DNA of 64,000 bases, taken from Maribacter algicola. GTDB lineage: Bacteria; Bacteroidota; Bacteroidia; Flavobacteriales; Flavobacteriaceae. Below, piece by piece: positions 4,504-64,000 of the stretch. The stretch is from the NCBI RefSeq assembly GCF_003933245.1, contig NZ_QUSX01000001.1, positions 1,488,001 to 1,552,000 of the forward strand, written 5' to 3'. The notes beneath the pieces were generated by a model, which saw only the letters and a list, made by a program, of their open reading frames with translations, made no database searches and was not told where the DNA came from. How positions within the stretch are numbered: the stretch's first letter is position 1; each line of letters opens with the position of its first letter. Position numbers and translations under genes: made by a program.

Positions 4504-5946
4504 ATGTCAAGCAACAAAAAGACAAAGATCGTAGCAACTTTAGGTCCCGCTACAAGTAAGAAAGATGTGCTAAGGAGCATGATGCTGGCAGGAGTGGATG
4601 TCTTTAGGATAAATTTTTCGCACGCAGATTATAATGATGTAAAGGAACGTGTTGATCTTATACGCGAATTAAACGAGGAGTTGGAAACCAATACGGCCAT
4701 TTTGGCCGATTTGCAGGGTCCCAAACTTAGGGTTGGGGTTATGTCCGGTGAAGTTGTAGTGAGCCCGGGGGACGAACTTACCTTTGTGACCGGAGAGCCT
4801 TTTGAGGGTACCGCTGAAAGGGTATTTATGAATTACAAGGAATTCCCAAGAGACGTAAAGGCGGGTGAGAGAATCCTATTGGATGACGGTAAATTAATTT
4901 TTGAAGTCGTTTCCACGAACGGGGAATCTGAGGTCAAGGCCAAGGTAATCCAAGGAGGACCTTTAAAGTCCAAAAAGGGCGTAAACCTTCCTAATACCAA
5001 TATTTCCTTGCCGGCACTTACCAAAAAGGATATTAAGGATGCTGAATTTGCCATATCGCTTGAGGTGGATTGGATTGCCTTATCCTTCGTAAGGTTTAGC
5101 CAGGATTTGATTGACCTACAAAATATTATAAAGCAGCATTCCCAACATAAGATTCCAATTATCGCCAAAATAGAAAAGCCGGAAGCCGTTGAGAATATTG
5201 ATAAAATTGTTGCCTACTGTGATGGCCTTATGGTAGCTAGGGGAGACTTGGGGGTTGAAGTTCCTGCCCAAGAGGTTCCCTTGATTCAAAAGAAATTGGT
5301 TCTTAGAGCCAAAAAAGCACGGATTCCGGTTATTATCGCTACCCAGATGATGGAAACCATGATTACGAGCCTTACCCCTACCAGAGCGGAAGTTAACGAC
5401 GTTGCCAACTCGGTAATGGACGGTGCGGATGCCGTAATGTTATCGGGTGAGACTTCCGTTGGAAACTATCCGGTGCAGGTCATCGAAAAAATGGCAAGCA
5501 TTCTTAGAAGCGTTGAATCATCGGAACTGATAAAAGTACCACACGAACCACCGCACGTAAGGACCAATCGGTACATCACAAAGTCTATATGCTATCATGC
5601 CGCCTTAATGGCCAATGAAATCAAGGCCAAGGCCATATCGACATTGACCAATAGCGGTTACACCGCATTTCAAATTTCGGCATGGAGGCCTAGTGCCCAT
5701 ATTTTAGTGTTCACTTCCAATAAACGGATCCTTACTCAATTGAATTTATTATGGGGCGTAAAGGCGTTTTATTATGATAAATTTGTCTCCACGGACCAAA
5801 CGATCGAGGATGTGAACGGTATCGCTTGCAAAAAAGGTTATTTGGAGGTGGGCGACATGTTGGTGAGTTTGGCGGCCATGCCTATCAAGGCAAAGGGTAT
5901 GGTAAACACGTTGAGGGTTACGGAAATTGAAACCTGTAATTTTTAA
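4504..5946 (+). CDS. pyk: Pyruvate kinase
   Basis: Last step of glycolysis: phosphoenolpyruvate plus ADP to pyruvate plus ATP. 480 residues, normal for the family. Visible are the N-terminal KIVATLGPATSK, the substrate loop FRINFSHADY, the active-site lysine in IIAKIEKPEAVENID and the MVARGDLGVEVP motif, followed by the C-terminal allosteric domain. It starts 2 bases after the IPExxxVDY gene. A perfect hairpin terminator follows 25 bases after the stop. Confidence 0.98.
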   Translation: MSSNKKTKIVATLGPATSKKDVLRSMMLAGVDVFRINFSHADYNDVKERVDLIRELNEELETNTAILADLQGPKLRVGVMSGEVVVSPGDELTFVTGEPFEGTAERVFMNYKEFPRDVKAGERILLDDGKLIFEVVSTNGESEVKAKVIQGGPLKSKKGVNLPNTNISLPALTKKDIKDAEFAISLEVDWIALSFVRFSQDLIDLQNIIKQHSQHKIPIIAKIEKPEAVENIDKIVAYCDGLMVARGDLGVEVPAQEVPLIQKKLVLRAKKARIPVIIATQMMETMITSLTPTRAEVNDVANSVMDGADAVMLSGETSVGNYPVQVIEKMASILRSVESSELIKVPHEPPHVRTNRYITKSICYHAALMANEIKAKAISTLTNSGYTAFQISAWRPSAHILVFTSNKRILTQLNLLWGVKAFYYDKFVSTDQTIEDVNGIACKKGYLEVGDMLVSLAAMPIKAKGMVNTLRVTEIETCNF

Positions 5947-6168: not shown

Positions 6169-6624
6169 GTGATACTTGATTTTCTTTTGGCAATGTTGTG
6201 GAGTTTTTCCCCTTTTGGAGAAGCCAAGGTAGGGATACCTTACGGTGTGCTTAAAGGGTTGGACATCTACGCCGTATTTATTTTTTGCTTTTTGGCGAAT
6301 GTCCTTGTTTTTCCCATGATGATGTTTTTTTTAGATAAAGTCAATGTTTATTTTACACGTTGGCGCTTCTATAAAAAATCCGCTTTATTCGTTGCAAGAA
6401 GGGCAAAAATGGGTTCTGGCGATAAAATCAAAAAATTTGGTTTTTTTGGGTTGATGTTCTTCGTAATGATACCACTCCCGGGTACTGGTGTTTATGCAGG
6501 TAGCATAGCTGCTTATCTATTCAAAATTGAAAGGCAAAAGGCTTTTTGGGCCAATACTATCGGTATTTTTTTCTCCTCTGTCATTGTATGGTTGGCTACC
6601 CTTGCCTCCATGCAGGTAATTTAG
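6169..6624 (+). CDS. Small multidrug export protein family membrane protein
   Basis: A 151-residue inner-membrane protein with about four hydrophobic segments. Its opening (WSFSPFGEAKVGIPYGVLKG) and the GLMFFVMIPLPGTGVYAGS stretch match the family annotated as putative small multidrug exporters (PF06695/COG2426); transport has rarely been tested. The start is GTG at 6169, because a TAA lies in frame at 6154 and no ATG fits. It stands alone between the pyk terminator and convergent dinB. Confidence 0.72.
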   Translation: MILDFLLAMLWSFSPFGEAKVGIPYGVLKGLDIYAVFIFCFLANVLVFPMMMFFLDKVNVYFTRWRFYKKSALFVARRAKMGSGDKIKKFGFFGLMFFVMIPLPGTGVYAGSIAAYLFKIERQKAFWANTIGIFFSSVIVWLATLASMQVI

Positions 6625-53009: not shown

Positions 53010-53260
53010 TTAGAAAAATACACTGTAAAGCACCAATAAGACAACAACAATAAAAATAGAAGTAAAAATCTGCAAATTGTACTTTGCTGGCCAGTTAGGC
53101 AAAAAATATCAAAATCGTCTTTGTTGGAATCCGATTTTTTTCGGGCAATCAATGTTAATGGATAAGACATTCTAAAAATAATAAGGGTAATACCTTCTGC
53201 TACATTCAAAGCGATTCCAATCCAAGTGTAGTGATTAATTCTATGGGTAACCCATCGCTG
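53010..53260 (-). pseudogene. Frameshifted and truncated small membrane protein gene
   Basis: In the minus frame starting after FLRQRW the codons give TWIGIALNVAEGITLIIF, MSYPLTLIARKK and SNKDDFDIF. A run of six T (53101-53106) is one short; adding one T restores FLPNWPAKYNLQIF and a hydrophobic end (IVVVLLVLYSVFF) with a stop at 53010. The 5' end is replaced by a transposase fragment (53258-53283). It was an integral membrane protein; no name known to me. Confidence 0.65.
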
Positions 53261-53283
53261 CCGCAAGAATCCTTTCGTGTGGC
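53258..53283 (-). mobile_element. 26-bp fragment of a DDE transposase gene
   Basis: Minus-strand copy of the sequence at 53725-53750, 25 of 26 bases identical, and read in the same frame (HTKGFLRQRW). It joins the broken RAYT gene to the broken membrane protein gene, marking an old insertion and deletion junction. Confidence 0.6.
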
Positions 53284-53286
53284 TAT

Positions 53287-53664
53287 TTACCTCCATAATT
53301 GATGATGGTTAACGATAGAGGAATTTTTAGCTGCATTTTTAAAATGCCCCAACATGAATTCCTTTCTGTTTTTCCTTCGGTTTTCTTTAATCGCCTTTAC
53401 GATTTGGTTACTGGTATATCTCTTCAAGTCGCCCAATACCTGCTCGGGCCTTTCAGGACAAATACATCTAAAGACTAAATTGATATGGTTTGTCATAATA
53501 CACCAAGCCATGATTTCCTTTCCTTTCTTGTTTTGGCAGTTGGAAAGACTCTCGATAAGGATATCCTTATATTCGTTACGTGAGAAAACATCAAGCCATT
53601 TCGCTACTGCAAAACTTACAAAATACAGACCTTCATGATTGTGAAATTTATAATTTCCGCTCAC
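53287..53664 (-). pseudogene. Truncated RAYT (REP-associated tyrosine transposase)
   Basis: 125 residues of a Y1/HUH transposase that is normally about 180. The opening (YKFHNHEGLYFVSFAVAKWLDVF) matches Bacteroidota RAYTs. The HUH motif is damaged: expected MxxHxH reads MTNHIN, with H60 kept and N62 in place of the second histidine. The C-terminus after QLWR is lost at the junction with the 26-bp IS fragment. Probably inactive. Confidence 0.78.
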
Positions 53665-53724
53665 TTTGCAAAGCTATGCCAAGCTATTTTGAGAAACGGA
53701 AGTCCTTATTTAATCAAATGATGT

Positions 53725-53948
53725 GCCACACGAAAGGATTCTTGCCGCAGTTTTGGATGCACCTTTCGGCCATTGCCCATAATTTGAAGAAGTACCTGAA
53801 ATTCGATCAAAAACGGGTAGAAAGCGGAGTGGGAACACTTGCTTTTGCAACACTTGCCAAAAGCGCACATGAGGTACTGTTAGGACCTTTCGAAAAGCGT
53901 TCAAAATTGGCTTTCCCTTTCCGGACGGACCTAAAAAAAGCCCTGTAA
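53725..53948 (+). pseudogene. C-terminal remnant of a DDE transposase (IS1182-like)
   Basis: Frame HTKGFLPQFWMHLSAI, then AHNLKKYLKFDQKR, ending at TAA 53946. The NLKKYLKF pattern is the usual C-terminus of IS1182/IS5-type transposases. No 5' part, terminal inverted repeats or target duplication seen, so only a fragment is left. The first 26 bases are repeated in inverted orientation at 53258-53283. Confidence 0.6.
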
Positions 53949-54022
53949 AGAGGCTTGTACGGATCCATTTATTCAGGAATCAATGTCTTATGTAACGGTT
54001 ACCGTTAATGTACTTAGTATTT

Positions 54023-54589
54023 TTATTTTTCAACCACTACCATTCGGTAATCCGTTTTTAATTTATGTCCGTTTTCCTTGTCTTCAAAAATATACTCAAA
54101 TTTTTTATCACTTAATCTGTTCAGCTGTTTTTCAAAGTCAATTGTTTCATTAAGAATCTCAATTTTTTTTCCGGTGTCTTGAACACAAAAAACAACCAAA
54201 CAACCTTTTTTAATATTCAATAATATTTTTTTAATAAAATCGATTTCTTTCTTTCGGTCATTCTTTGCGAAATGAAACATACTGTCAAGCAATTTAAAAT
54301 CAAACTCTCCAAAACTGTCAAATTCAAAAATGTCAGTTACTTTTCCAATAAACTTTAGACTTTCATTTTCTGCAATTCGGTTCATTTGTTCAATTCCGAC
54401 TTTTGAGTTGTCAATTCCGGTCACATTATATCCAAGCCGCGCTAATGGAATGGCATCTCTTCCTTGTCCACAACCTAAATCCAAAATTTTTCCTCTTTCT
54501 GAGTAGTCGGAGAAAAATTCAATTAGTTCTGGATATGGGTTTCCAAACAAGTTTTCAGTCTCATAATATTTGTCGTAAGCTACTTTCAT
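54023..54589 (-). CDS. SAM-dependent methyltransferase (cassette gene)
   Basis: 188-residue class I methyltransferase. SAM motif ILDLGCGQGRDAIPLARLGYNV at 36-57 with the acidic GIDNS after strand 2. Resembles TehB-type and small-molecule methyltransferases; the substrate is unknown. Flanked by complementary cores TTAATGT (54004-54011 and 54602-54609). Confidence 0.85.
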   Translation of the reverse strand: MKVAYDKYYETENLFGNPYPELIEFFSDYSERGKILDLGCGQGRDAIPLARLGYNVTGIDNSKVGIEQMNRIAENESLKFIGKVTDIFEFDSFGEFDFKLLDSMFHFAKNDRKKEIDFIKKILLNIKKGCLVVFCVQDTGKKIEILNETIDFEKQLNRLSDKKFEYIFEDKENGHKLKTDYRMVVVEK

Positions 54590-54601
54590 TTCAGTTTTTC
54601 C

Positions 54602-54761
54602 ACATTAAGCACAAGGCCACAGGCGTATTTGACCGGTCTGGAATATGAAAAGTAGTCGATTTTGAAACACGAAACTTTCGGTTAATTACAAAGTTCGATA
54701 CGAACCTAAAGTCATGAATTTATTGCTATTTCGCCTATTTTTTATATACATTGTACTAAGC
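54602..54761 (-). repeat. attC-like site between YwqK and methyltransferase genes
   Basis: Minus-strand order: GCTTAGTAC core at 54761-54753, an AT-rich imperfect palindrome, and CTTAATGT at 54609-54602. The core triplet is TAC instead of AAC, so this is the weakest site of the series. Its gene-proximal end (TATACATTGTAC on the plus strand) resembles that of the site at 60636-60772. Confidence 0.35.
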
Positions 54762-54767
54762 AGTTAT

Positions 54768-55631
54768 TTAAGATATTCTTTCTCCGTTTGAGTATTCTTG
54801 TGTACTTTCTAAATTCCCATTCTCATCATAAAGAAATCGTTCACCCTCAAGTTCTCCATTTTTATAATTCTCTTTAATAGATTTAGTTCCATTCATGTTG
54901 TACCATATTCGTTCCCCGTTTTCTTTACCATTTACAACTGTTCCTTCTCTCATTTTATTTCCGTTTGGATAGAAAACTGTTTCTTTTCCATTTGGATTAT
55001 CTCCTAGGTATTCTGTTTCGCTATAAATTCCGCCATCAACTACTTTCCCCTTAAAGTCCCATAATTCGTAGACAAGCCCTTCAATTTTTCCATTTTTGTA
55101 GAACTTCTTTCTCTTTAGTTTTCCATTTTCTAAGTATTTTACACTTTCTCCAACTTGAAGCCCATTTATAAACTTTTCTTTAAGTTTCAACTGTCCATTC
55201 TCATACCATTCATATTGTTCTCCACTTAAATTTCCGTTGACATAATTCTTTTCTTTCTTTTTCTGCCCATTGCCAAACCATTCTTCCCACTTATCATTGA
55301 GTTGGTCATTTTTCCATTCCTGTCGAATTTTAGAGCCATCATTATAGAACATCTCAGAAACACCTTCCCGTAAACCTTCTTTATAGCTTTCTATTAGATA
55401 GATTTTACTTTCATAATTTGGATAGTGAAGAAAAGGCTTTTTCATTCTGCCAATCACACTGCCATTTAGTTTTTCACCCTTATAGTTTTCTTCTAAAGTG
55501 TAGTTATCAAAAATCTGTATTTTTTTATTAATTCCATCTTTTTGATAAATGCTGAATGAGGAAGTTTCTTCTTTCACTGTCCAACCCTCAAGATTTAGTT
55601 CTTCTATTTCTGATATGTATGTTGGTTTCAT
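54768..55631 (-). CDS. MORN-variant repeat protein (YwqK family)
   Basis: 287 residues with at least eight repeats of the pattern YxNGxxxGxxxxWYxNG (for example NGQLKLKEKFINGLQVGESVKYL is two half-repeats), i.e. toxin-antitoxin system YwqK-type antitoxin repeats, PF07661. No signal peptide or membrane segment. Such genes occur as immunity or surface-related proteins, but no toxin partner is next to it. Lies in the cassette array. Confidence 0.85.
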   Translation of the reverse strand: MKPTYISEIEELNLEGWTVKEETSSFSIYQKDGINKKIQIFDNYTLEENYKGEKLNGSVIGRMKKPFLHYPNYESKIYLIESYKEGLREGVSEMFYNDGSKIRQEWKNDQLNDKWEEWFGNGQKKKEKNYVNGNLSGEQYEWYENGQLKLKEKFINGLQVGESVKYLENGKLKRKKFYKNGKIEGLVYELWDFKGKVVDGGIYSETEYLGDNPNGKETVFYPNGNKMREGTVVNGKENGERIWYNMNGTKSIKENYKNGELEGERFLYDENGNLESTQEYSNGERIS

Positions 55632-55637
55632 TTAATT

Positions 55638-55765
55638 GCTTAGAATACAGCGCTATGTACGACAGCTGCGAAAGCAGTGTGCGCGTTGGGGCGTTGGCGG
55701 CTATTTTTTGGAAATATAGTGAAAACCATTAATGATGATACGGTTATCTGTCCGTTGTTGGCATG
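55638..55765 (-). repeat. attC-like site between amidohydrolase and YwqK genes
   Basis: Starts on the minus strand with CATGCCAAC (55765-55757), which is complementary (8/9) to the core before the amidohydrolase gene (57287-57279). A 42-base block at 55709-55750 is 38/42 identical to 62932-62973 inside the last long element. Confidence 0.55.
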
Positions 55766-55771
55766 TCGTTG

Positions 55772-57262
55772 TTATTTTACCGATAAATTTTCTCTAACTA
55801 TTACTTCACCTCCTAGAACTATTTTTTCAATAGTATTGTAGGCCTCTATTTCTTTAAGAGGATTCTTTGTCATCAATATTAAATTTGCTTTTTTTCCAAC
55901 TTTTATTGAACCAACATCAGAGTCCAATTTAAATGCCTTTGCGTTGTTAATTGTCGCTGAAGCTAAAATTTGATTTAACGGAACATTAGCTTCATTCATT
56001 AATTTTAATTCCCAAAATCCATTATGACCGGGTTGATTTCCATATGTTGGTGCCGAAGGAGTGTCCGTACCAAATAAAATTAACCCTCCATTATTCGACA
56101 GGTATTTTAAGACAAGTTTTGCATGCTCTTGAATATTGCCATAAATGCTATGGACTTCCTCAGCAGTATAGTCCGCAAAAAGCTCATTGGCAAACCATTG
56201 TCCTTCCTCTGTCCCATACCACTCCATCAATTTTTTTGGGACAATTTTGCTTAATTCAGGATTGCTTAGAAAACTATTGTCTGCTAAAGCTTCTTCTCCA
56301 GCTAAAACCGTCAAAGTAGGAGTATAACCAATCTGTTTTTTAATTTGCAAGTCTAGGACGCTCCTTATCTCTTTTGGCAAAGAATCATTTGGTAAATCTT
56401 TGTATTTTCCCCAGTTCCATAAACCATGGGCGATAACATCCACTCCAATATCGGCCAGGAATGAATGCGCTTCCAGTGAATTACCATGAACAGTAAGAAC
56501 AAGTCCGTTTGATTGGGCTTCATTTAACAGGTCAGTCATAATACTTTTTGTGGGTACGGGCAATTTTGGCATCCCTCTAAAACCAGATTCATAATATGCT
56601 TTGACGGCAATGGCTCCAGAATTTTTTATCCGACTTACAACAGCTTTTGGGGTGTGATCTACTGGGTCGAATCGATCAGGGATATTGTCGGCCTCACTTT
56701 CCAGATATATGAAATTTGGAGTTCCCTCGAATCGGAATTGTTCAGGAGCAAAATTCATAGGATAGCCATTTGCGACTGATGCTCCTGACCTTCCAGTATG
56801 AAATAAATCTGGTTTAATGGGGTGCCTATTAAAAGAAGCAATCTGTTCTTCTGATATGCCTCCCAGGTTGATCAAAGTTGTAAAGCCATAGTACAAATAG
56901 CTTCGAGGCATCTGATTATTAAATTCTTCCGTCAATTCAGGGTATTTTTCCATATGATAAGGAAGCATTCCTTGTACTTCTGTGATATGAACATGGCTAT
57001 CAATTAGTCCCGGAATTACAAATTTCCCGGTTCCATCAATTTCTTCAAATTTCCCGTTAACACTTGGCTCACTTTTATCAATGTAAACGATTTTATCTTT
57101 TTCTATTACCAGATGGCCTATATATGGGCTGTAGTTTCCATCTTCAGAAGATATAATGGTTATATTCGATATGTAAACACCTTGCTTAAGGTTCAATCGA
57201 TCCTGTTTGTCTTTACAAGAAATTAATTGTAAAATAAGTGTTAGTAAAATGATTTTTTTCAT
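55772..57262 (-). CDS. Amidohydrolase-family lipoprotein (cassette gene)
   Basis: 496 residues. Lipobox LISC at C16. Metal-dependent hydrolase (imidazolonepropionase/dihydroorotase group): H90 and H92 in LIDSHVHITEV, LTVHGNS, HGLWNWG, and the catalytic aspartate in LFGTDTPSAP, closing with GSIKVGKKANLILM. Exported or membrane-bound because of the lipobox. Bounded by GTTTGCATG and CATGCCAAC. Confidence 0.9.
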   Translation of the reverse strand: MKKIILLTLILQLISCKDKQDRLNLKQGVYISNITIISSEDGNYSPYIGHLVIEKDKIVYIDKSEPSVNGKFEEIDGTGKFVIPGLIDSHVHITEVQGMLPYHMEKYPELTEEFNNQMPRSYLYYGFTTLINLGGISEEQIASFNRHPIKPDLFHTGRSGASVANGYPMNFAPEQFRFEGTPNFIYLESEADNIPDRFDPVDHTPKAVVSRIKNSGAIAVKAYYESGFRGMPKLPVPTKSIMTDLLNEAQSNGLVLTVHGNSLEAHSFLADIGVDVIAHGLWNWGKYKDLPNDSLPKEIRSVLDLQIKKQIGYTPTLTVLAGEEALADNSFLSNPELSKIVPKKLMEWYGTEEGQWFANELFADYTAEEVHSIYGNIQEHAKLVLKYLSNNGGLILFGTDTPSAPTYGNQPGHNGFWELKLMNEANVPLNQILASATINNAKAFKLDSDVGSIKVGKKANLILMTKNPLKEIEAYNTIEKIVLGGEVIVRENLSVK

Positions 57263-57278
57263 TCTTAAAGTCTTAATG

Positions 57279-57414
57279 CATGCAAACGATTTAGCTAAGG
57301 TTCGTTTCTGTGATTCGTCCGAAGGACAATCCAGCCGAATCCAAAGATAGCTTTTAGCCCGTGATTTCCGTTTGGGAAATCCGCAAGCAATGAAATATAG
57401 GTTTTGTTAGCAAC
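57279..57414 (-). repeat. attC-like site between the small lipoprotein and amidohydrolase genes
   Basis: Starts with GTTGCTAAC (57414-57406) and ends with GTTTGCATG (57287-57279). Contains a stem GATTTCC / GGAAATC around 57363-57381. Start and end cores do not pair with each other, but with cores of the neighbours across the genes. Confidence 0.6.
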
Positions 57415-57426
57415 AGTTTTATTAAT

Positions 57427-57789
57427 TCAATTCCTTTGGAATATCATAATGTCATTTGATTCAGCAGGAAAGAATCCTCCAATTTCAAATTTATTTTTGT
57501 CAAAAATCCGGTATGAAACTATTTGATATGACTCAACATCACATTCATTACAATCCAATATCAATTCATTTTTGTTTAACTGCTTAATTGTGAATGTAGT
57601 GTTTGTTTTAACATCGGAAATTACCCGTCGTAATTGAGTTTTAGAAATGAATTCGAGTTGAACTCTTTCATTGATAGGAGATACTTCTGTGAAAGATCCG
57701 ATTAAGATTTCATACTCTTCTTCAGATTCAGACTTTGTACATGAGTTAAGTCCAATTATTAGTGCGAGTATCAAATATATCTTCTTCAT
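57427..57789 (-). CDS. Small lipoprotein (cassette gene)
   Basis: 120 residues. Lipobox LNSC at C16-C17. The rest is beta-rich with two later cysteines (LDCNECDVE). No family recognised. Typical of cassettes: short, exported, single gene, no promoter box seen. Confidence 0.72.
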   Translation of the reverse strand: MKKIYLILALIIGLNSCTKSESEEEYEILIGSFTEVSPINERVQLEFISKTQLRRVISDVKTNTTFTIKQLNKNELILDCNECDVESYQIVSYRIFDKNKFEIGGFFPAESNDIMIFQRN

Positions 57790-57843
57790 ATGGTAAATTC
57801 CTATAAAGATGCCAGTAGTATAAAAAGGGTGCTTTCAATATTA

Positions 57844-57961
57844 TTGCCAACGCCGGGCTATGTGAAGCCAGGTTCTGGATTTTGAATATATCGAATTTAT
57901 TCGGGTAATTTCAAATTACAGTTGGAAGGTGGACAGGTTCCATATTTCCATTGTTGGTAGC
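57844..57961 (-). repeat. attC-like site between S15 hydrolase and small lipoprotein genes
   Basis: 118 bases. Minus strand: GCTACCAAC (57961-57953) to GTTGGCAA (57851-57844), with a long imperfect palindrome centred near 57898 (GAATTTATTC). The outer arms match the long elements (GGGCTATGTGAAGCC). Size fits integron attC sites. Confidence 0.65.
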
Positions 57962-57979
57962 TGGTGTTTATCAGTCCGC

Positions 57980-59704
57980 TTAATTTTTCCATATCGGAAT
58001 TTCGATATAACTTTCATTATGCCATTTAATTTGTAATGGTTCATCCGCATCTTTTATAGATTCATCAGAAACAGGTTTTCCTGAACCATAGTTGATTATC
58101 TCAAACGGATGTTTGTTGATGTTGAGCAAAATTACTAGTCGGCTACCCTTACTTATTTTTCTGCTTACAAATCTAGTATTGACAAATGGAATACTCTCTT
58201 CTTTATCGGGTTGCAATAGCTGTCGTTTGGAATTGTTTTGAGCATAGCTAGCCCTACCAACATATCGGGTAAGGAAAAAATATTTTCCGTTTGGCATCTG
58301 CTCATACAATGCTAATGAAACATCCATATCTTTTTTGTTGATGGTTGCAAACAGCTCTCCAGTAAATGACCCGTTTATAGAAAAATCTTTTTCAAAAGGT
58401 TTCGATGTGAAGACTGAACCATTGCTTTGGTCTAATGTATCAAAAACAATTTCAGGGGTGTAATAATTGTTTTGACTTTCTCTGTCTTTAAAATTAACTG
58501 ATTGCTCTTCAAACCTTCTCTTTTTCGGTTTATGAATTGTAAGTGTTTTATTGTCTAAATACAATCTAATCGTGTCGTTATTCATTGTTTGCAAAGAAGG
58601 GGAATGTCGCCACTCATTTGTTCCCATTACCTGATAGTTTACTTTGTCCTTCAGCAATTCAGGCTTGGGTTTACCTTTTAATATGTAGTCGAGCCAGTCA
58701 TAAGCCAACTGCCGCATACTCATGTTTGCAACACTGTCAATATCATAAGCCATTAGGTTTTTTGCTGCTTTGGCTTGTCCGCCCCAATGGTCATAAGGTC
58801 CAATTACGAAATAGTGGTTTGCGTTTTTATTGTATTTATTATGCAATTTGAAATATTGTATCGCTCCGATTTGAGATCCGTCATAATAGCCTGTGGTCGT
58901 CAAGACAGGAATATCGATTTTTGCATACTCTTCTGGAGTCGGAACCAATGATTGCCAATACTTATCGTAACTGGGATGTTGCAGCCAATTTTGAAATATC
59001 TTGTTTTTATATCCCGCCAAACTATCGAGATTTTTCCAAGCTATACCATTGGTAAACCATTCAAAAGGCAAACTTCTTCTAATAGGTTCTTCTTTATAAA
59101 TATTGTCATTAGACCAATATAAACCCAAATACATTTGGACGTTATTTTCCATAGGAGTGTCATAACCAGGCATAACTGCTACTTGTGGAACAATGGTTTT
59201 AAGTGCAGGATGAATATTTTTTACCGTTGCCCATTGCGAAAATCCTGTGTAACTGCCACCATACATCCCAACATTTCCATTGCACCAGTCTTGTTTACTT
59301 ATCCAATCAATAATATCGTAAATGTCCGTTTGTTCATTTTCGTAAGGGGAGTAATGGTTTATATCTGTTCTAATTCCCCGAGCGTAGGCTACAATTCCAA
59401 CATAATCTCTGTCAGCTGATAGTTTTGCGAAAAAGCTATCTCCCTCTCCCTGATAGTATGTTGTGTAAAAAAGAACAGCCGGTAATGGTTGGGTATGGGT
59501 TTGTTTTCGGACTATGGTTGCCGAAATGTCAATTCCACTTTTTGTTGGTATTAGTATGCTATCTTGAATGTTGTAGAAACTGTCGGACAATTTGGTTTCT
59601 TGGGCATAGGAAGAAACTACGTTTGTCAATAGAAGACAAAAGGTTGCAAAAATGCATATCACTTTATTTGTTCGTTTTTTTATTGTAGTAGTAGGGTTTC
59701 TCAT
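57980..59704 (-). CDS. S15 / CocE-NonD family hydrolase, exported
   Basis: 574 residues from the ATG at 59704; a longer in-frame start at 59818 would run into the palindrome and is rejected. A signal peptide (VICIFATFCLLLTNVVSSYAQ) is followed by an alpha/beta hydrolase with nucleophile serine in YGGSYTGF, aspartate in TGYYDGSQ and histidine in GPYDHWGG, then a C-terminal beta domain. X-Pro dipeptidyl-peptidase-like or esterase. Flanked by GTTGGTGGC and GCTACCAAC. Confidence 0.88.
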   Translation of the reverse strand: MRNPTTTIKKRTNKVICIFATFCLLLTNVVSSYAQETKLSDSFYNIQDSILIPTKSGIDISATIVRKQTHTQPLPAVLFYTTYYQGEGDSFFAKLSADRDYVGIVAYARGIRTDINHYSPYENEQTDIYDIIDWISKQDWCNGNVGMYGGSYTGFSQWATVKNIHPALKTIVPQVAVMPGYDTPMENNVQMYLGLYWSNDNIYKEEPIRRSLPFEWFTNGIAWKNLDSLAGYKNKIFQNWLQHPSYDKYWQSLVPTPEEYAKIDIPVLTTTGYYDGSQIGAIQYFKLHNKYNKNANHYFVIGPYDHWGGQAKAAKNLMAYDIDSVANMSMRQLAYDWLDYILKGKPKPELLKDKVNYQVMGTNEWRHSPSLQTMNNDTIRLYLDNKTLTIHKPKKRRFEEQSVNFKDRESQNNYYTPEIVFDTLDQSNGSVFTSKPFEKDFSINGSFTGELFATINKKDMDVSLALYEQMPNGKYFFLTRYVGRASYAQNNSKRQLLQPDKEESIPFVNTRFVSRKISKGSRLVILLNINKHPFEIINYGSGKPVSDESIKDADEPLQIKWHNESYIEIPIWKN

Positions 59705-59709
59705 CACTT

Positions 59710-60181
59710 GCCACCAACGCAGGGCTATGTGAAGCCACGTTCTGGATTTTGAATATAGCGAATTTATTCGCGTTATTTTAAAATACAGTTGGAACATGAA
59801 CAGGTTGCATATAGCCATTGATATGTACTTTTTTCCTCGATGGCACCTAAAGGTGATAGGTTGGCCAGTCCCTTATCCTACGGATTATGCAAACTGGCAT
59901 GGCCCTGCGATGATGTACAAATCCCAAGGGGCGGGAATTGGAGCCTTTGGCGACAATGTAGCGACTTGGGTTCACCTTTAGGTGACCGAGCGTAGCGACC
60001 GATGAATACCTTTGAAAAACAATAAAAATTAGATGAATAATTGTACATCATCGGCTTCGGCTATGATTTGTGGCAGCGTTGGAAATCGTTAGATTTCCAG
60101 CTGTTGCAAATCCAGCCGTTGATGGTTTCTAAGTTTGAAGTTAAAGAATTACAGCTATAAATTATAGCCATTGTTAGGCAC
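59710..60181 (-). repeat. Long attC-like element A
   Basis: 472 bases from GTGCCTAAC (60181-60173) to GTTGGTGGC (59718-59710). Holds a right palindrome (60059-60179, with inner stem GGAAATC/GATTTCC), a spacer with paired arms GATGATGTACA / TGTACATCATC (59909-59919, 60042-60052), and a left palindrome (59715-59820) whose outer arm CGCAGGGCTATG also pairs with 59898-59909. No coding frame I trust. Confidence 0.65.
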
Positions 60182-60190
60182 TGTTATTTA

Positions 60191-60619
60191 TTAGTCTCCT
60201 CTACCTAAATACGCTCGGATTGATTTTATTTTTCCGTTAGAATTAATTGTGATAACATCAACTACATAAAGTTCCTCCGTAGAGTCAACTGTTATTTTCA
60301 GTTCAGCTGCAACTGTGTCTTTGTTTTCATATGTAGAAAGCACTTCGATTTCTATAGAATTTGCATTCTCAAAATTTTTCCTTGTTTCATTTATTGCATT
60401 ATCCTTTCCCTCAACGCGAATTTTCCAGTCTCGCAACACAATATCCTCGGAAAACATTTCTTCGATACTATTTAAGTCCTTTTCCTCATATTTTTTTAGA
60501 TACAAAAGACATATTTCTTTATTGGTTTTTTCAGTAAAAGTTTTACTTCTTTTTTCCATCGGTTGAAATTCATTGGTAATTAGAAATATTGCTGATATTA
60601 AAACTGTTTTTATATACAT
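60191..60619 (-). CDS. NTF2-like (SnoaL-type) protein, exported (cassette gene)
   Basis: 142 residues. Short hydrophobic start (TVLISAIFLITNEFQP), then an NTF2-like fold: LYLKKYEEKDLNSIEEMFSEDIVLRDW, and later VDVITINSNGKIKSIRAYLG. Small-molecule-binding or enzymatic, unknown. Flanked by GCTAGGCAC and GTGCCTAAC. Confidence 0.8.
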   Translation of the reverse strand: MYIKTVLISAIFLITNEFQPMEKRSKTFTEKTNKEICLLYLKKYEEKDLNSIEEMFSEDIVLRDWKIRVEGKDNAINETRKNFENANSIEIEVLSTYENKDTVAAELKITVDSTEELYVVDVITINSNGKIKSIRAYLGRGD

Positions 60620-60635
60620 TCGATTTTTTTTAATT

Positions 60636-60772
60636 GTGCCTAGCGGTCTCGTATAACTGTCAGTTACGGGTTAATATGCGTTAATATTTGGTTTGGAACT
60701 GATGTAAGCAATTCCGAGTGGATTCGGACGTAGTCGAATCCGCCGTAATTGCGGTTATACATTGTTGTGGTG
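60636..60772 (-). repeat. attC-like site between CPBP and NTF2 genes
   Basis: 137 bases from CACCACAAC (60772-60764) to GCTAGGCAC (60644-60636). Nested stems: GTATAAC/GTTATAC, GCAATT/AATTGC and GGATTCG/CGAATCC. The end core is GCT where GTT is expected. Confidence 0.65.
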
Positions 60773-61585
60773 TCGTTTCTCTTTTTTCCACCAAAAGTAA
60801 ACAACAATACTAAATATTAAAGCCATTAATACCCAAGGTAATTGTAGACATACAAGAGAAAAATTCTCCAATTCAACATTTGATTGAAAAATCCCTGATG
60901 GGATTGCCTGATTCTCTTGTTCAGGTCTCAAGTCAAAAATACTAATCGTGATGAAATTAGCTCCTGTATGAATTCCTAATGCAGCACCCAATCTGTTTGT
61001 TTTGAAATATATTATACTAAAAAATATAGTGTGTAAAACCGGAATTAGAATAGTATATAAAAGTAATTCACCTTCAACTTGATTAGAATAACTTTTAAGA
61101 CCAACGAAAAACATCATTATAATAATTGCTGCATTGGCCCCAAAACTTTTTTCAAATGATTTTAAAGGGTAACCTCTTGTAAATAGTTCTGTTCCTAAAT
61201 CTGCAATAAAAATGAATAAGAGTCCATAAAGAATATTATATAGAGAAACATTTTGCCTTAACTCCCAAGAAAAACCTGTGATGTAAGATTGTAATATAGA
61301 AACGATTGCCCATAAAACGATTCCAATTAGTAATCCGTAATAGAATTCTAAACGATTCTTGGATTTTAATGAAATACCTAAATCGTAAAGCGTAATCTTA
61401 TCTGTTTTACAAAACCATTTTGTAATTAGCCAACTAGACAGTGTAAACAGTGTAAACAGGATTAACATTGTTAAATTATGGGGCAGCTGAAACGGTATGT
61501 AAAAAGCTATTAATCCCTTTCGAAGAAGAAAATCGAGTATAGTCAAGATTATCAAGAATAAAATAGCTTTTAAAAATGGTTTCAT
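60755..61585 (-). CDS. CPBP-family membrane protein with degenerate active site
   Basis: 276 residues from the ATG at 61585 (a longer frame up to 61675 would read through the palindrome). About eight hydrophobic helices. Resembles the CPBP/Abi intramembrane protease family: motif 1 reads TELFTR where EExxxR is usual, the expected FxxxH motif is not visible, and the final HxxxN is present as HTGAN. Possibly inactive as a protease. The stop lies inside the following attC-like site (60755-60772 overlap). Confidence 0.65.
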   Translation of the reverse strand: MKPFLKAILFLIILTILDFLLRKGLIAFYIPFQLPHNLTMLILFTLFTLSSWLITKWFCKTDKITLYDLGISLKSKNRLEFYYGLLIGIVLWAIVSILQSYITGFSWELRQNVSLYNILYGLLFIFIADLGTELFTRGYPLKSFEKSFGANAAIIIMMFFVGLKSYSNQVEGELLLYTILIPVLHTIFFSIIYFKTNRLGAALGIHTGANFITISIFDLRPEQENQAIPSGIFQSNVELENFSLVCLQLPWVLMALIFSIVVYFWWKKEKRHHNNV

Positions 61586-61622
61586 AAGTATTATTGAATT
61601 TGTAAATGGCTTTTTTTTTATG

Positions 61623-62114
61623 CACCACAACGCAGGGCTATGTGAAGCCACGTTACGGATTTTAAATTTACGCAACTTGTTGGGATAAATTTAAAATACG
61701 TGTTGAACGTGGACAGGTTGCATATAGCCGTTGATATGTACTTTTTTCCTCGATGGCACCTAAAGGTGATAGGTTGGTTGGTCCCTTATCCTACGGATTA
61801 TGCAAACTGGCATGGCCCGGAGCCTGTGCAGAGTTTACCGAAGTAATGATGTACAAATCCCAAGGGGCGGGAATTGGAGCCTTTGGCGAGAATGTAGCGA
61901 CTTGGGTTCACCTTTAGGTGACCGAGCGAAGCGACCGATGAATACCTTTGAAAAACAATAAAAATTAGATGAATAATTGTACATCATCGGTCTCGGCTAT
62001 GAGTAGTTGCGTGGTTTAGCACTTAACTTTGCAAGTACACACCAGGCTGAAAATCCGCTAGGATTTTCAGAAGTAGGCGAGAACAAGCAATTACTTATAG
62101 CCAATGTTGTGCTT
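61623..62114 (-). repeat. Long attC-like element B
   Basis: 492 bases from AAGCACAAC (62114-62106) to GTTGTGGTG (61631-61623). Direct repeat of element A over about 270 bases (61713-62002 against 59800-60066), differing by an insertion near 61819-61845. Right palindrome has inner stem CTGAAAATCC/GGATTTTCAG at 62047-62070. Confidence 0.65.
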
Positions 62115-62117
62115 TCG

Positions 62118-62870
62118 TTATTTATTTTGTAACTCAATTGTAATCTTATCTATCAGTTCAAGAATACTATTTTCAACTCTTTTTCCACGGGATTGAATTG
62201 TGCTATTTTCGAAAGCAATAGCATTTAGTAACTTAATGAATTTTGAATCTTTTTTTAATTTTTGATAATCCTCCTTACTAATGTCAAAATAAAATCCATA
62301 GTAAGCTGAGGGGTTATTTATATCATAATTCATTGAAAAGTATTCTAATAGTTGTGTTTCGCTATGTAAGGCGTGAAATCTTCCGCGTTCATCCTCATAA
62401 GTTTTATAATAAGGGTATAATATATCATATTGATATGAAATAGAATTTCTCAGACTGTCATTTTTGATTATTCCCACACTTCGAGATTGCAATAAATTAT
62501 ATCCACTATTTATGGGGTTAAAATGTGGTGTAACTCTTAGAATAGCTGAACTTACCGATAAAGAATCGGTTGGTTCGTCAAGAGTAAGTAAATGATTTTT
62601 AACACTTAAACAGGCCTTATTAATGTCAACCATTAACTCTAAATCTTCTCTAATTTCTGTTAGGTCTGTTTGGAGGTTATTTCGAATTTCTTTTAGAATT
62701 TTGACTTCAAAATCATTTGCTTTCCTTTGCTCATTCAGGTTGTTCACCTGAAGTGCAATTAAAATTCCAATAACCACAAGAACAATTTCTCCAATTGCAT
62801 ATTTCAAATACTTTCCAGTTTTATTTTCCATAAGCAAGTTTTGGCGAATTTTTCTAAAGAATTTTATCAT
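62118..62870 (-). CDS. DUF6090 family membrane protein (cassette gene)
   Basis: 250 residues. Basic start (MIKFFRKIRQNLL), YLKYAIGEIVLVVIGILIALQVNNLNE as the single membrane helix, then an extramembrane helical domain. This opening is typical of DUF6090 proteins of Flavobacteriia. Function unknown. Flanked by a perfect 9-base inverted repeat: GTTGTGCTT at 62901-62893 and AAGCACAAC at 62114-62106. Confidence 0.85.
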   Translation of the reverse strand: MIKFFRKIRQNLLMENKTGKYLKYAIGEIVLVVIGILIALQVNNLNEQRKANDFEVKILKEIRNNLQTDLTEIREDLELMVDINKACLSVKNHLLTLDEPTDSLSVSSAILRVTPHFNPINSGYNLLQSRSVGIIKNDSLRNSISYQYDILYPYYKTYEDERGRFHALHSETQLLEYFSMNYDINNPSAYYGFYFDISKEDYQKLKKDSKFIKLLNAIAFENSTIQSRGKRVENSILELIDKITIELQNK

Positions 62871-62892
62871 CGGTTATTGGTTGGTCATAATG

Positions 62893-63384
62893 AAGCACAA
62901 CGCCGCGCTATGTGAAGTCCGGCGAATTTTATGGAAATATAGTGAAAACCATCAACGATGGTTCGGTTATCTGGCAGGTTTTTGGTATTGTGAACCGTAT
63001 CATCGTTCATCGATAAGGCTACGTAGTGGCCGTCTATCGTGGTTTTCACGGTATTGGGAATAAAATTTGTCGACCAGATTACATATAGCGTCCTGATATG
63101 TCGAGTAGATAAGCCGTAGCGGCGGTCTTTGCAAAGAGGTCCCTTATCCTACGGCCAATGTAATCTGGCATAGCGCGGCGATGATGTCGACTGGCTTTTG
63201 GTGCGGTAATTGCGCTAGCAATGCGACAAAAGTACGCCGCAGGCGTATTCGACATCATCGTTATTGTATAAGATTAGTGGCGTGTTTAAGCACCTAATTT
63301 AGCAAATAAAACTGAATAGGAAATCCGCGAGGATTTTGGTAAGTAAGCGAGAACTAGCCATTAATTTTATACGGTGTTAGCAAC
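62893..63384 (-). repeat. Long attC-like element C
   Basis: 492 bases from GTTGCTAAC (63384-63376) to GTTGTGCTT (62901-62893). Same plan as elements A and B but diverged in sequence. Perfect paired arms: CGCCGCGCTATG (62901-62912) with 63169-63180; CCAGATTACAT (63074-63084) with 63158-63168; GATGATGTCGA (63180-63190) with 63249-63259. Stems keep pairing while bases differ from A. Confidence 0.65.
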
Positions 63385-63419
63385 TGGCTTTTTTCTCCAT
63401 AATAAGTTGTTATGGCAAA

Positions 63420-63986
63420 CTATTCATTTTTTAATTTATCTATATACGGTTTTATTTCCTCTAAAGTATATCGTTGCTGGATATGCTGTGGGCAATTTAT
63501 ATCCCAAGCTGTTATTTTTATTTTAATGATTCGTTCTATAGGGACGTCATAGTCTTTATCTATAAACTGTTCCATAAGATTTGATTCATTTGTGATGATG
63601 GAAGCTTCTCCCCAAATTTTTATTCTTTTCCTATTTGGGTAATCTATTAAAAAGAGGTGTACTTTATTATTTTCATCAAAATTACCTACTGAAATATATT
63701 GCCTATTTCCTGAAAAGTCTGCAAAGGCCAAATGTTGGTCATCCATCACTTTTAAAAAGCCTTTAGGACCACCTCTATGTTGTATGTAAGGTTGCCCATC
63801 TGCATTTGCCGAAGCCATATAAAAAGAATCTCTTTCACTAATAAAAAAACGGAGTTGTTCAGTGATTTTAGTTTGCCAATCCCTTTTTTCTGCCATATTT
63901 TGATAGGCTACTCTTGAGCCCATTTCTTCTTGTCTATTTTTTACTGACGGAGTGAATGCAATATCACTTATATATCTTGAATCCAT
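63420..63986 (-). CDS. Pyridoxamine 5'-phosphate oxidase-fold protein
   Basis: 188 residues with a split-barrel flavin-binding fold: FFISERDSFYMASANADGQPYIQHRGGPKGFLKV, AFADFSGNRQYISVGN, VHLFLIDYPNRKRIKIWGEA. Such proteins reduce or bind small molecules with FMN or F420-like cofactors; the substrate is unknown. The downstream flank is the core GTTGCTAAC of element C; the upstream flank is outside the window, so membership of the array is only partly testable. Confidence 0.85.
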   Translation of the reverse strand: MDSRYISDIAFTPSVKNRQEEMGSRVAYQNMAEKRDWQTKITEQLRFFISERDSFYMASANADGQPYIQHRGGPKGFLKVMDDQHLAFADFSGNRQYISVGNFDENNKVHLFLIDYPNRKRIKIWGEASIITNESNLMEQFIDKDYDVPIERIIKIKITAWDINCPQHIQQRYTLEEIKPYIDKLKNE

Positions 63987-64000
63987 ACGTGTGTGTTTTT

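Follow-up and report, generated by a model that had tools for sequence, protein, structure and literature searches.

From 54.0 kb onwards, the window (the whole 64,000-nt stretch of Maribacter algicola DNA that we analysed) contains genes on one strand that alternate with long palindromes, with a private core on both sides of each gene. The genes, palindromes and cores noted in a sequence-only reading of the window were all re-located, while the limits it gave for the array, 54004-63384, proved too narrow. The array runs from about 54.0 kb to approximately 75.47 kb in window-equivalent coordinates. A tyrosine recombinase gene, which that reading suggested looking for right of 64 kb, was found at this far end, where its frame sits directly beyond ~75.47 kb, divergent from the cassettes and 5'-truncated, without the first 91 residues.

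All cassette genes in the window lie on the minus strand, and the folding strand of every site is the plus strand. The most distal gene (TehB/methyltransferase-like, 188 aa, 54023..54589) is followed by site S1 (54632..54755; R1 match at C1:1542632-1542755, E 8e-6) and a MORN_2 (YwqK-like) gene of 287 aa (54768..55631). The cores of these two cassettes are degenerate. Site S2 (55645..55759, right core GTTggcatg, left edge approximate and placed by eye) precedes an amidohydrolase gene of 496 aa (55772..57262; cores 5/6, 55757-57287), S3 (57285..57408), a gene of 120 aa with no Pfam match at E 0.01 (57427..57789; cores 4/6) and S4, a site of the GGCTATGTGAAG type (57849..57955). Next come a Peptidase_S15/PepX_C gene of 574 aa (57980..59704, its start chosen by eye and the longest ORF reaching 59818; cores 5/6), the composite site S5 (59716..60175, R1 unit 60050-60175), a SnoaL_2 gene of 142 aa (60191..60619; cores 6/6) and the simple 125-nt site S6 (60642..60766). 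The stop codon of the following Rce1-like (CPBP) gene (276 aa, 60755..61585; cores 6/6) falls within S6. Beyond it are composite site S7 (61629..62108, R1 unit 61986-62108), a DUF6090 gene of 250 aa (62118..62870; cores 6/6) and composite site S8 (62899..63378, R1 unit 63257-63378).

The remainder of the window (63376..64000, cassette on the minus strand) is one end of a multi-gene cassette of 5823 nt that has GTTAGCAAC/GTTGCTAAC at its boundaries, with cores matching at 6/6, and reaches window-equivalent 69204 (L009:1204). The PNPOx_N gene at 63420-63986 is one of its genes; of the nine single genes originally described, the ninth therefore belongs to a larger cassette. The ~480-bp palindromes are, as read here, composite, with two site units flanking a segment that contains no long ORF and is bounded by GATGATGT/ACATCATC. 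We consider the window very probably to hold the distal portion of an integron-type gene-capture platform of the class Bacteroidia.

Each cassette is laid out as GTT-core, gene, core'-AAC and site body, with core and core' complementary and private to that cassette. From the distal to the integrase end of the window's own array, and leaving out the methyltransferase and YwqK cassettes, 5, 4, 5, 6, 6, 6, 6, 5, 6, 6 and 6 of the 6 nt next to GTT/AAC match across the 11 intervals (the second value was counted by hand). The same complementarity across a gene was looked for in 88 intervals of 150-2500 nt from 32 loci (31 related loci plus the window's array, which contributed one interval), between sites of 103-106, 118-131 or 181-192 nt that had been found without using the cores: 77 matched at 5 or 6 of 6, and 69 of these at 6/6. 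Over 5000 shuffles the mean was 5.2 intervals and the maximum 15. Random matching at the same rate between shuffled flanks, named beforehand as an outcome that would speak against the cassette reading, was not seen. Also as first described, the two cores within one palindrome match each other only at chance level (mean 2.13 of 6, n = 107).

Core matches occurred in 174 of 257 intervals from four giant arrays, G368 and two further stretches of the window's own genome (shuffle mean 11.0, maximum 24). Stretches belonging to other families in the class gave matches in 18 of 24 intervals (mean 2.1 and maximum 10 on shuffling), and three of these nine stretches yielded no interval. Intervals without a match numbered 11/88 in the locus set and 83/257 in the giant-array set, some of them perhaps because sites of other types were overlooked; matching was weakest in G406 (11/37) and in C1:1858-1876 kb of the window's genome (0/5). 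A short inverted repeat around each gene, with a tyrosine recombinase nearby, might also be expected if the recombinase flipped each gene in place, giving phase variation. We consider such invertible cassettes very unlikely, as 233 of 251 core-matched cassettes have their longest ORF on the cassette strand, the cores vary between cassettes (97 different 6-mers among 231 cores) and whole cassettes are gained and lost.

The sites are predicted, from sequence statistics, to form single-stranded folds, with one strand preferred. With strand-neutral detection in the same giant-array set of stretches, the better-folding strand was the one opposite the genes, with 355 G.T and 2 A.C stem wobbles, and the scan returned 151 sites in the 9/6 geometry and none mirrored. 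An earlier strand test (167/172) was dropped as biased since G.T pairs had been allowed in site detection, and a generic AAC...GTT duplex scan was rejected in favour of fixed-geometry scans after a control stretch of the window yielded five sites. Stretches from other families of the class showed a weaker strand bias (G.T 56 v A.C 22, summed over stretches). All 151 sites have ungapped L stems, a feature that the scan itself asks for. In a site alignment the L stems covary, with 86.6% of cells paired v 64.7% when shuffled and double changes in 13 of 16 pairs. The site model gave no match in a small negative control of two Pseudomonadota genomes and five plasmids.

Stable hairpins between genes are also what transcription terminators or RNA elements separating ordinary genes in fixed order would look like. 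That explanation is extremely unlikely in our judgement: the strand that folds best is complementary to the mRNA, site lengths group at 121-127 nt (simple sites ~124 nt), an Rfam scan of L009:1-8300 gave no match, and syntenic genomes differ in both gene order and content.

Of the 73 related loci examined, 56 encode an integrase of 353-359 aa, and in most cases an attI-like site is conserved upstream (the scripts covered 73 of 77 loci, leaving out L086, L087, L091 and L093, three of which entered the tree input). The attI-like motif was present in 54 of 59 upstream stretches (excluding L080-L084, genes <320 aa and loci with <130 bp upstream) v 71 of 4464 background windows, and was not found upstream at L039, L042, L050, L059 and L074. 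Among the 46 related loci with 1500 bp or more upstream, a strict scan found no site at 16. The integrase of a second subfamily is oriented toward the array. Eighteen of 20 genomes searched had an integrase match at E 1e-30; G364 and G352 had none at that threshold, with sites present in both. In G417 and G433, which have arrays, the fetched stretches contain no integrase of this kind. In the window's own genome the attI-like site is missing and the integrase frame lacks 91 residues, so its three site clusters are probably frozen.

R213, K240, H302, R305, H328 and Y337 were invariant in 30 of 30 integrases. An N-terminal domain, predicted as beta-beta-alpha-beta-beta-alpha (mean pLDDT 80), had no convincing match among PDB folds (best E 0.2), and for two of the three proteins Pfam gave no match; DUF5710 was rejected as an assignment, its E of 0.007 in a plasmid homolog being below the DUF5710 cut-off. 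The domain may resemble HARP domains.

These results bear on whether the platform is simply a canonical IntI/attC integron, of the kind that IntegronFinder would class as known. The architecture is the same, among NCBIfam models the integrase scores best with TIGR02249 'integron integrase', and Foldseek on the integrase model placed VchIntIA (2a3v) at the top. The TIGR02249 scores, however, were 199.2, 187.9 and 196.6 bits, all below the cut-off of 265, and the NF040815 score of 196.6 bits was likewise below its cut-off of 220. The segment GxKDR-HxLRH is 63 aa in 57/57 integrases of this type, which lack the IntI-specific insert, and 105-106 aa in 23/23 IntI, which all have it. In a quick tree with SH-aLRT support, built from 66 of 95 rows after removal of near-copies and of four rows that were short or odd, and leaving the branch order unresolved, the 21 IntI rows formed one clade (support 100) and the 35 rows of integrases of this type a separate clade (99). 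The sequence-only reading had interpreted the cores as TTRRRY/RYYYAA; GTTRRRY occurs in only 20 of 231 cores, and the L stems are ungapped with G.T wobbles (in a scan that asks for ungapped stems). The integrases and sites thus fall outside canonical IntI by insert, profile score, tree grouping and core consensus, and we consider a canonical integron very unlikely. The broader proposal of an integron-type array is supported by the integrase, the attI-like site, the one-strand arrays with private cores and cassette-precise differences between genomes; the array is not a canonical integron. The integrase lacks the IntI insert, and the sites are unlike canonical ones.

Cassette-precise differences between related genomes had been named beforehand as the key test, and a fixed gene order in syntenic genomes as evidence to the contrary. 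The close genomes G417 and G433 differ by whole cassettes, with order and content changed in a syntenic setting, and G419, G430 and G443 have the same locus without the platform. One whole cassette is common to Algibacter (L032), Kriegella (L035) and G394 at 92-94% identity, its ends lying 3-10 nt from the cassette boundaries in the comparisons with G394. Another is 99.4% identical over 703 bp between G361 and L059, and L074 holds a duplicate cassette. Across 37 shared segments, and excluding flanks beyond the integrase, right ends fell within 20 nt of a boundary in 43% v 8% at random; for left ends there was no enrichment (11% v 8%).

We infer from these patterns a route of capture by way of circles. 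An excised cassette circle would join its own ends, and its bottom strand would fold as a single hairpin with an R stem of 9-12 bp built from the private cores, followed by a 6x3 asymmetric loop, an L stem of 14-16 bp bearing G.T wobbles at set steps, and a variable tip. Next, the divergent tyrosine recombinase would join the folded bottom strand to the attI-like site AAC|ACNNAAATAT near its own gene, with crossover at G^TT, so that cassettes would enter singly and all in one orientation.

Whether this amounts to a second, independently evolved integron is a question on which we are evenly divided. By that account, the Bacteroidia platform would combine an Xer-like recombinase and a new N-terminal domain with a private R stem and a one-way ratchet. 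The R stem would exist only in the free circle, because the two halves of a site in the array belong to different cassettes. Integration would dismantle the recognition stem, making the process a one-way ratchet, and a gene would therefore become collectable through an arbitrary tag that matches itself rather than through a consensus sequence. An independent origin of the platform is possible.

Among known systems, the nearest in organisation is the chromosomal (sedentary) integron with IntI, attI and attC, of which the Vibrio superintegron is an example. Both have an integrase gene with an adjacent attI or attI-like site, long arrays in one orientation of mostly single-gene cassettes, cassette-precise turnover, and palindromic sites with R and L stems, an asymmetric loop and a bottom-strand bias. 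LexA/SOS control of the integrase is a trait of canonical integrons. The integrases described here form their own clade, lack the insert and carry an extra N-terminal domain. Their R cores are cassette-private where IntI sites have GTTRRRY, the strand bias takes the form of G.T wobbles in an L stem without gaps, and simple sites measure ~124 nt. Canonical attC sites have extrahelical bases in the L stem; the ungapped stems seen here come from a scan that asks for them.

XerA-type or 'integron-like' simple tyrosine recombinases (NF040815) share the catalytic and SAM-like core, and by sequence the integrases described here may already belong to that subgroup; they differ in having the N-terminal domain and in adjoining cassette arrays, which the source passages do not tie to XerA-type members without the insertion. 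IS91-associated tyrosine recombinases (L124, L125) have the same core fold family and no IntI insert, but fall off the clade in the tree and have an IS91 transposase as the next gene.

Bacteroidota are among the phyla listed as having integrons in passages of PMC8618304 and PMC9668308, and the relevant passage on IntegronFinder 2.0 (PMC9024848) gives for Bacteroidetes In0 elements from an earlier study and, in Salinibacter ruber, a single complete integron. No literature on such arrays in Flavobacteriia was found among the matches listed, which is no proof in a search that left most subscription journals and bioRxiv uncovered. A passage of PMC9668308 describes an additional, IntI-specific domain within the catalytic domain as a defining characteristic of IntI and its profile as the basis of IntI-based searches, which would be expected to miss integrases of this type. 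If our reading is correct, an integron-type platform is spread across the class, with a large untapped reservoir of cassette genes. The IntI insert and core consensus would then appear dispensable for integrons, whereas single-strand folding and strand bias would not, making what an integron needs separable from the peculiarities of IntI. Of the genomes sampled, 106 of 120 in the family and 94 of 149 in the class had sites of this type, and the largest array, in 80 kb of G361, had 94 scanned sites on one strand and 9 on the other.

The sequence-only reading had described minus-strand genes alternating with palindromes, and these were seen at about 54.0–64.0 kb of the window, which covers G000:C1:1488001–1552000. 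The array is as claimed, except that it is not confined to the window: it runs right to about L009:7466 (L008 and L009 being own-genome DNA right of the window), and the frame of a tyrosine recombinase, suggested as worth seeking beyond 64 kb, begins where the array ends. The nine window proteins gave, in order, the Pfam families methyltransferase/TehB, MORN_2, amidohydrolase, none, Peptidase_S15, SnoaL_2, Rce1-like, DUF6090 and PNPOx_N. The PNPOx_N gene lies inside a multi-gene cassette with perfectly matched cores (window 63376–64000, L008:14000–18000, L009:1–1204), which by eye also holds genes that we take to be Dps-, OsmC-, GAPDH-, alpha/beta-hydrolase- and TetR-like, among others; four further cassettes follow it to the right. 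At 5823 nt it is unusually large for a cassette. The distal end of the array carries a presumably REP-associated-transposase-like ORF (window 53257–53948) between inverted copies of GCCACACGAAAGGATTCTTGCCGCA, adjoined by a fragment that we assume to be transposase-like.

Cores match across most genes, as had been proposed. When sites were detected without core information and then paired along each array, 77 of 88 intervals (32 loci) matched at 5 or 6 of 6 positions, against a mean of 5.2 in shuffled flanks; the subset of intervals ending at the attI-like site (attI) matched in 24 of 27 cases, and the two cores of the same palindrome matched at chance level. The giant-array scan set comprised the four giant arrays (G361, G308, G394 and G406), the G368 genome, and own-genome C3 and C1:1858–1876 kb. 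Here 174 of 257 intervals matched (shuffle mean 11.0, maximum 24): 74/90, 46/54, 37/63 and 11/37 in the giant arrays, respectively, 3/4 in G368, 3/4 in C3 and 0/5 in C1. Other families of the class gave 18 of 24, from six of nine stretches. Among 231 perfect cassettes we counted 97 different core 6-mers, with two to four pair types at each of core positions 4–9, a GTTR start in 227, and a G.T pair at position 11 in 86–87%. Because of the counts of 6-mers, pair types and GTTR starts, the R stem formed by a cassette's two cores is read as about 12 bp, self-complementary per cassette, nearly arbitrary in sequence and broken up upon integration.

On the bottom strand, opposite the genes, a site reads AAC plus 6 nt, a 14–16 bp stem, a variable tip, and 3 nt plus GTT; simple sites cluster at 121–127 nt from AAC to GTT. 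Strand-blind detection (Watson-Crick pairs scored 1, G.T and A.C 0.5 each) found 151 sites in bottom-strand geometry versus 0 mirrored in the giant-array scan set, with 355 G.T versus 2 A.C stem wobbles, and 41 versus 4 mirrored at the integrase loci (G.T 92, A.C 1). The bias was weaker in the nine stretches from other families of the class (summed G.T 56 versus A.C 22). G.T wobbles fell chiefly at stem steps 7 and 12. Across 27 aligned sites, 13 of 16 stem pairs had changes on both sides, and 86.6% of cells were paired, compared with 64.7% shuffled and 31–45% slid. Since the strand bias argues for it, the folded bottom strand is the putative substrate; an RNA role of the sites is disfavoured because the mRNA strand folds less well. 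Where 1500 bp or more of upstream sequence was available (46 related loci), a strict scan found one or more sites of the main length classes in 30 and none in 16, where other site types and arrays of different make may be involved.

The integrase frame of the window array is divergent from the cassette genes and spans 264 codons, in which the first ATG, GTG or TTG comes no earlier than residue 12; relative to the Maribacter sp. 4G9 protein (L018) it lacks the first 91 residues, and a site is fused to it. It is the sole match of its kind in its genome (E 1e-30). Searching named genomes gave 77 integrase loci, 63 of them in Flavobacteriia going by record titles, with 4G9 the closest (97%); 56 of 73 loci examined encode 353–359 aa, and the catalytic residues are invariant in 30/30 aligned integrases. 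The top NCBIfam models were TIGR02249 (199 bits, 265 needed) and NF040815 XerA (197 bits, 220 needed), both below cut-off, and the structure model ranked VchIntIA (2a3v) first in the PDB, then XerA. In a catalytic-domain tree built with insert columns removed, 35 of these integrases formed one clade (99) and 21 canonical integron integrases (IntI) another (100), with no settled branch order among these integrases, IntI and IS91-associated recombinases. The IntI-insert segment was 63 aa in 57/57 of these integrases versus 105–106 aa in 23/23 IntI. This insert contacts extrahelical bases in IntI, and an ungapped stem would be a coherent fit to an integrase without it. Canonical IntI exceeded the profile cut-off in 84 of 296 sampled phylum genomes: one of 73 from the same genome, family, order or class versus 83 of 223 in the rest of the phylum. 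Judged from sequence, the components with which an integron works are in place and conserved, save those identifying IntI; the platform's origin could be either independent or from a common integron ancestor.

A full-length homolog (41%), annotated as a site-specific integrase, lies on Chryseobacterium oryzae plasmid NZ_CP094530.1 (L120:12001–13044), near IS91 transposases and a ParA gene. All four giant arrays have nearby a related integrase of a second subfamily (37–41% identity; G361:C1:531416–532480, G308:C1:2793688–2794755, G394:C1:151655–152452, G406:C1:242104–242988), oriented toward the array, not away, with 0.2–3 kb between it and the closest scanned interval or matched cassette.

The attI-like motif, A[A/T]C then about ACNNAAATAT, occurred upstream of the integrase start in 54 of the 59 loci whose gene and upstream DNA were of sufficient length, mostly at 143–190 bp, and in 71 of 4464 background windows; in three of the 54 (L021, L033, L035) the listed match is a second one, close to the one read as attI. 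Its last triplet was ATC in five of 54, and in L051, L058 and L089 this ATC is the end of a gene-less element. Such a cassette, devoid of genes and bounded by GATGATGT...ACATCATC, is repeated within the window array, by eye inside composite sites S5, S7 and S8 (window 59716–63378) and sites S9 and S10 (L009), and lies directly before attI in other genera (L034, L051, L058, L089; by eye). Its ends show a compensatory change within the GTT/AAC triplet itself. Between attI and the integrase start, L018 (about 5350–5395), L019 (about 6315–6357) and many other integrase loci show, by eye, an inverted repeat of the GTATATCAAA...TTTGATATAC type, possibly an operator of the integrase.

The flanks of the window array are syntenic within the genus. 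The platform is absent from this place in three genomes (G419, G430, G443), where about 50–110 bp separates the left flank from the right one. At this locus the arrays of G417 and G433, 94–97% identical in longer common stretches, differ by whole cassettes, the kind of gain or loss anticipated for related strains: G433 has one additional cassette, GTTGTACTTAG...AAGTACAAC, and elsewhere about seven where G417 has two (by eye), the divergence running from directly after a common AAC to a common end element. One whole cassette is common to L032, L035 and G394 (92–94%; edges 3–10 nt off the boundaries versus G394), G361 and L059 share another at 99.4% identity over 703 bp, and L074 holds two copies of one cassette (99.4%) with different neighbours. 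Among 37 shared segments, right edges were enriched at cassette boundaries and left edges were not.

By covariance model, with per-genome counts as lower bounds, sites were matched in 106 of the 120 family genomes (E 1e-3) and 94 of the 149 class genomes (E 1e-4); neither two Pseudomonadota genomes nor five plasmids, three of the plasmids with integron integrases, gave a match. The own genome (4.11 Mb, 7 contigs) had at least 18 matches with E no worse than 1e-3, of which 16 fell into three clusters; besides the window array, these clusters lie at G000:C3:257276–259664 (three consecutive cassettes, 6/6 cores) and G000:C1:1859–1869 kb (no matched interval among five). The largest array, in G361, had 94 scanned sites on one strand in 80 kb, and nine on the other.
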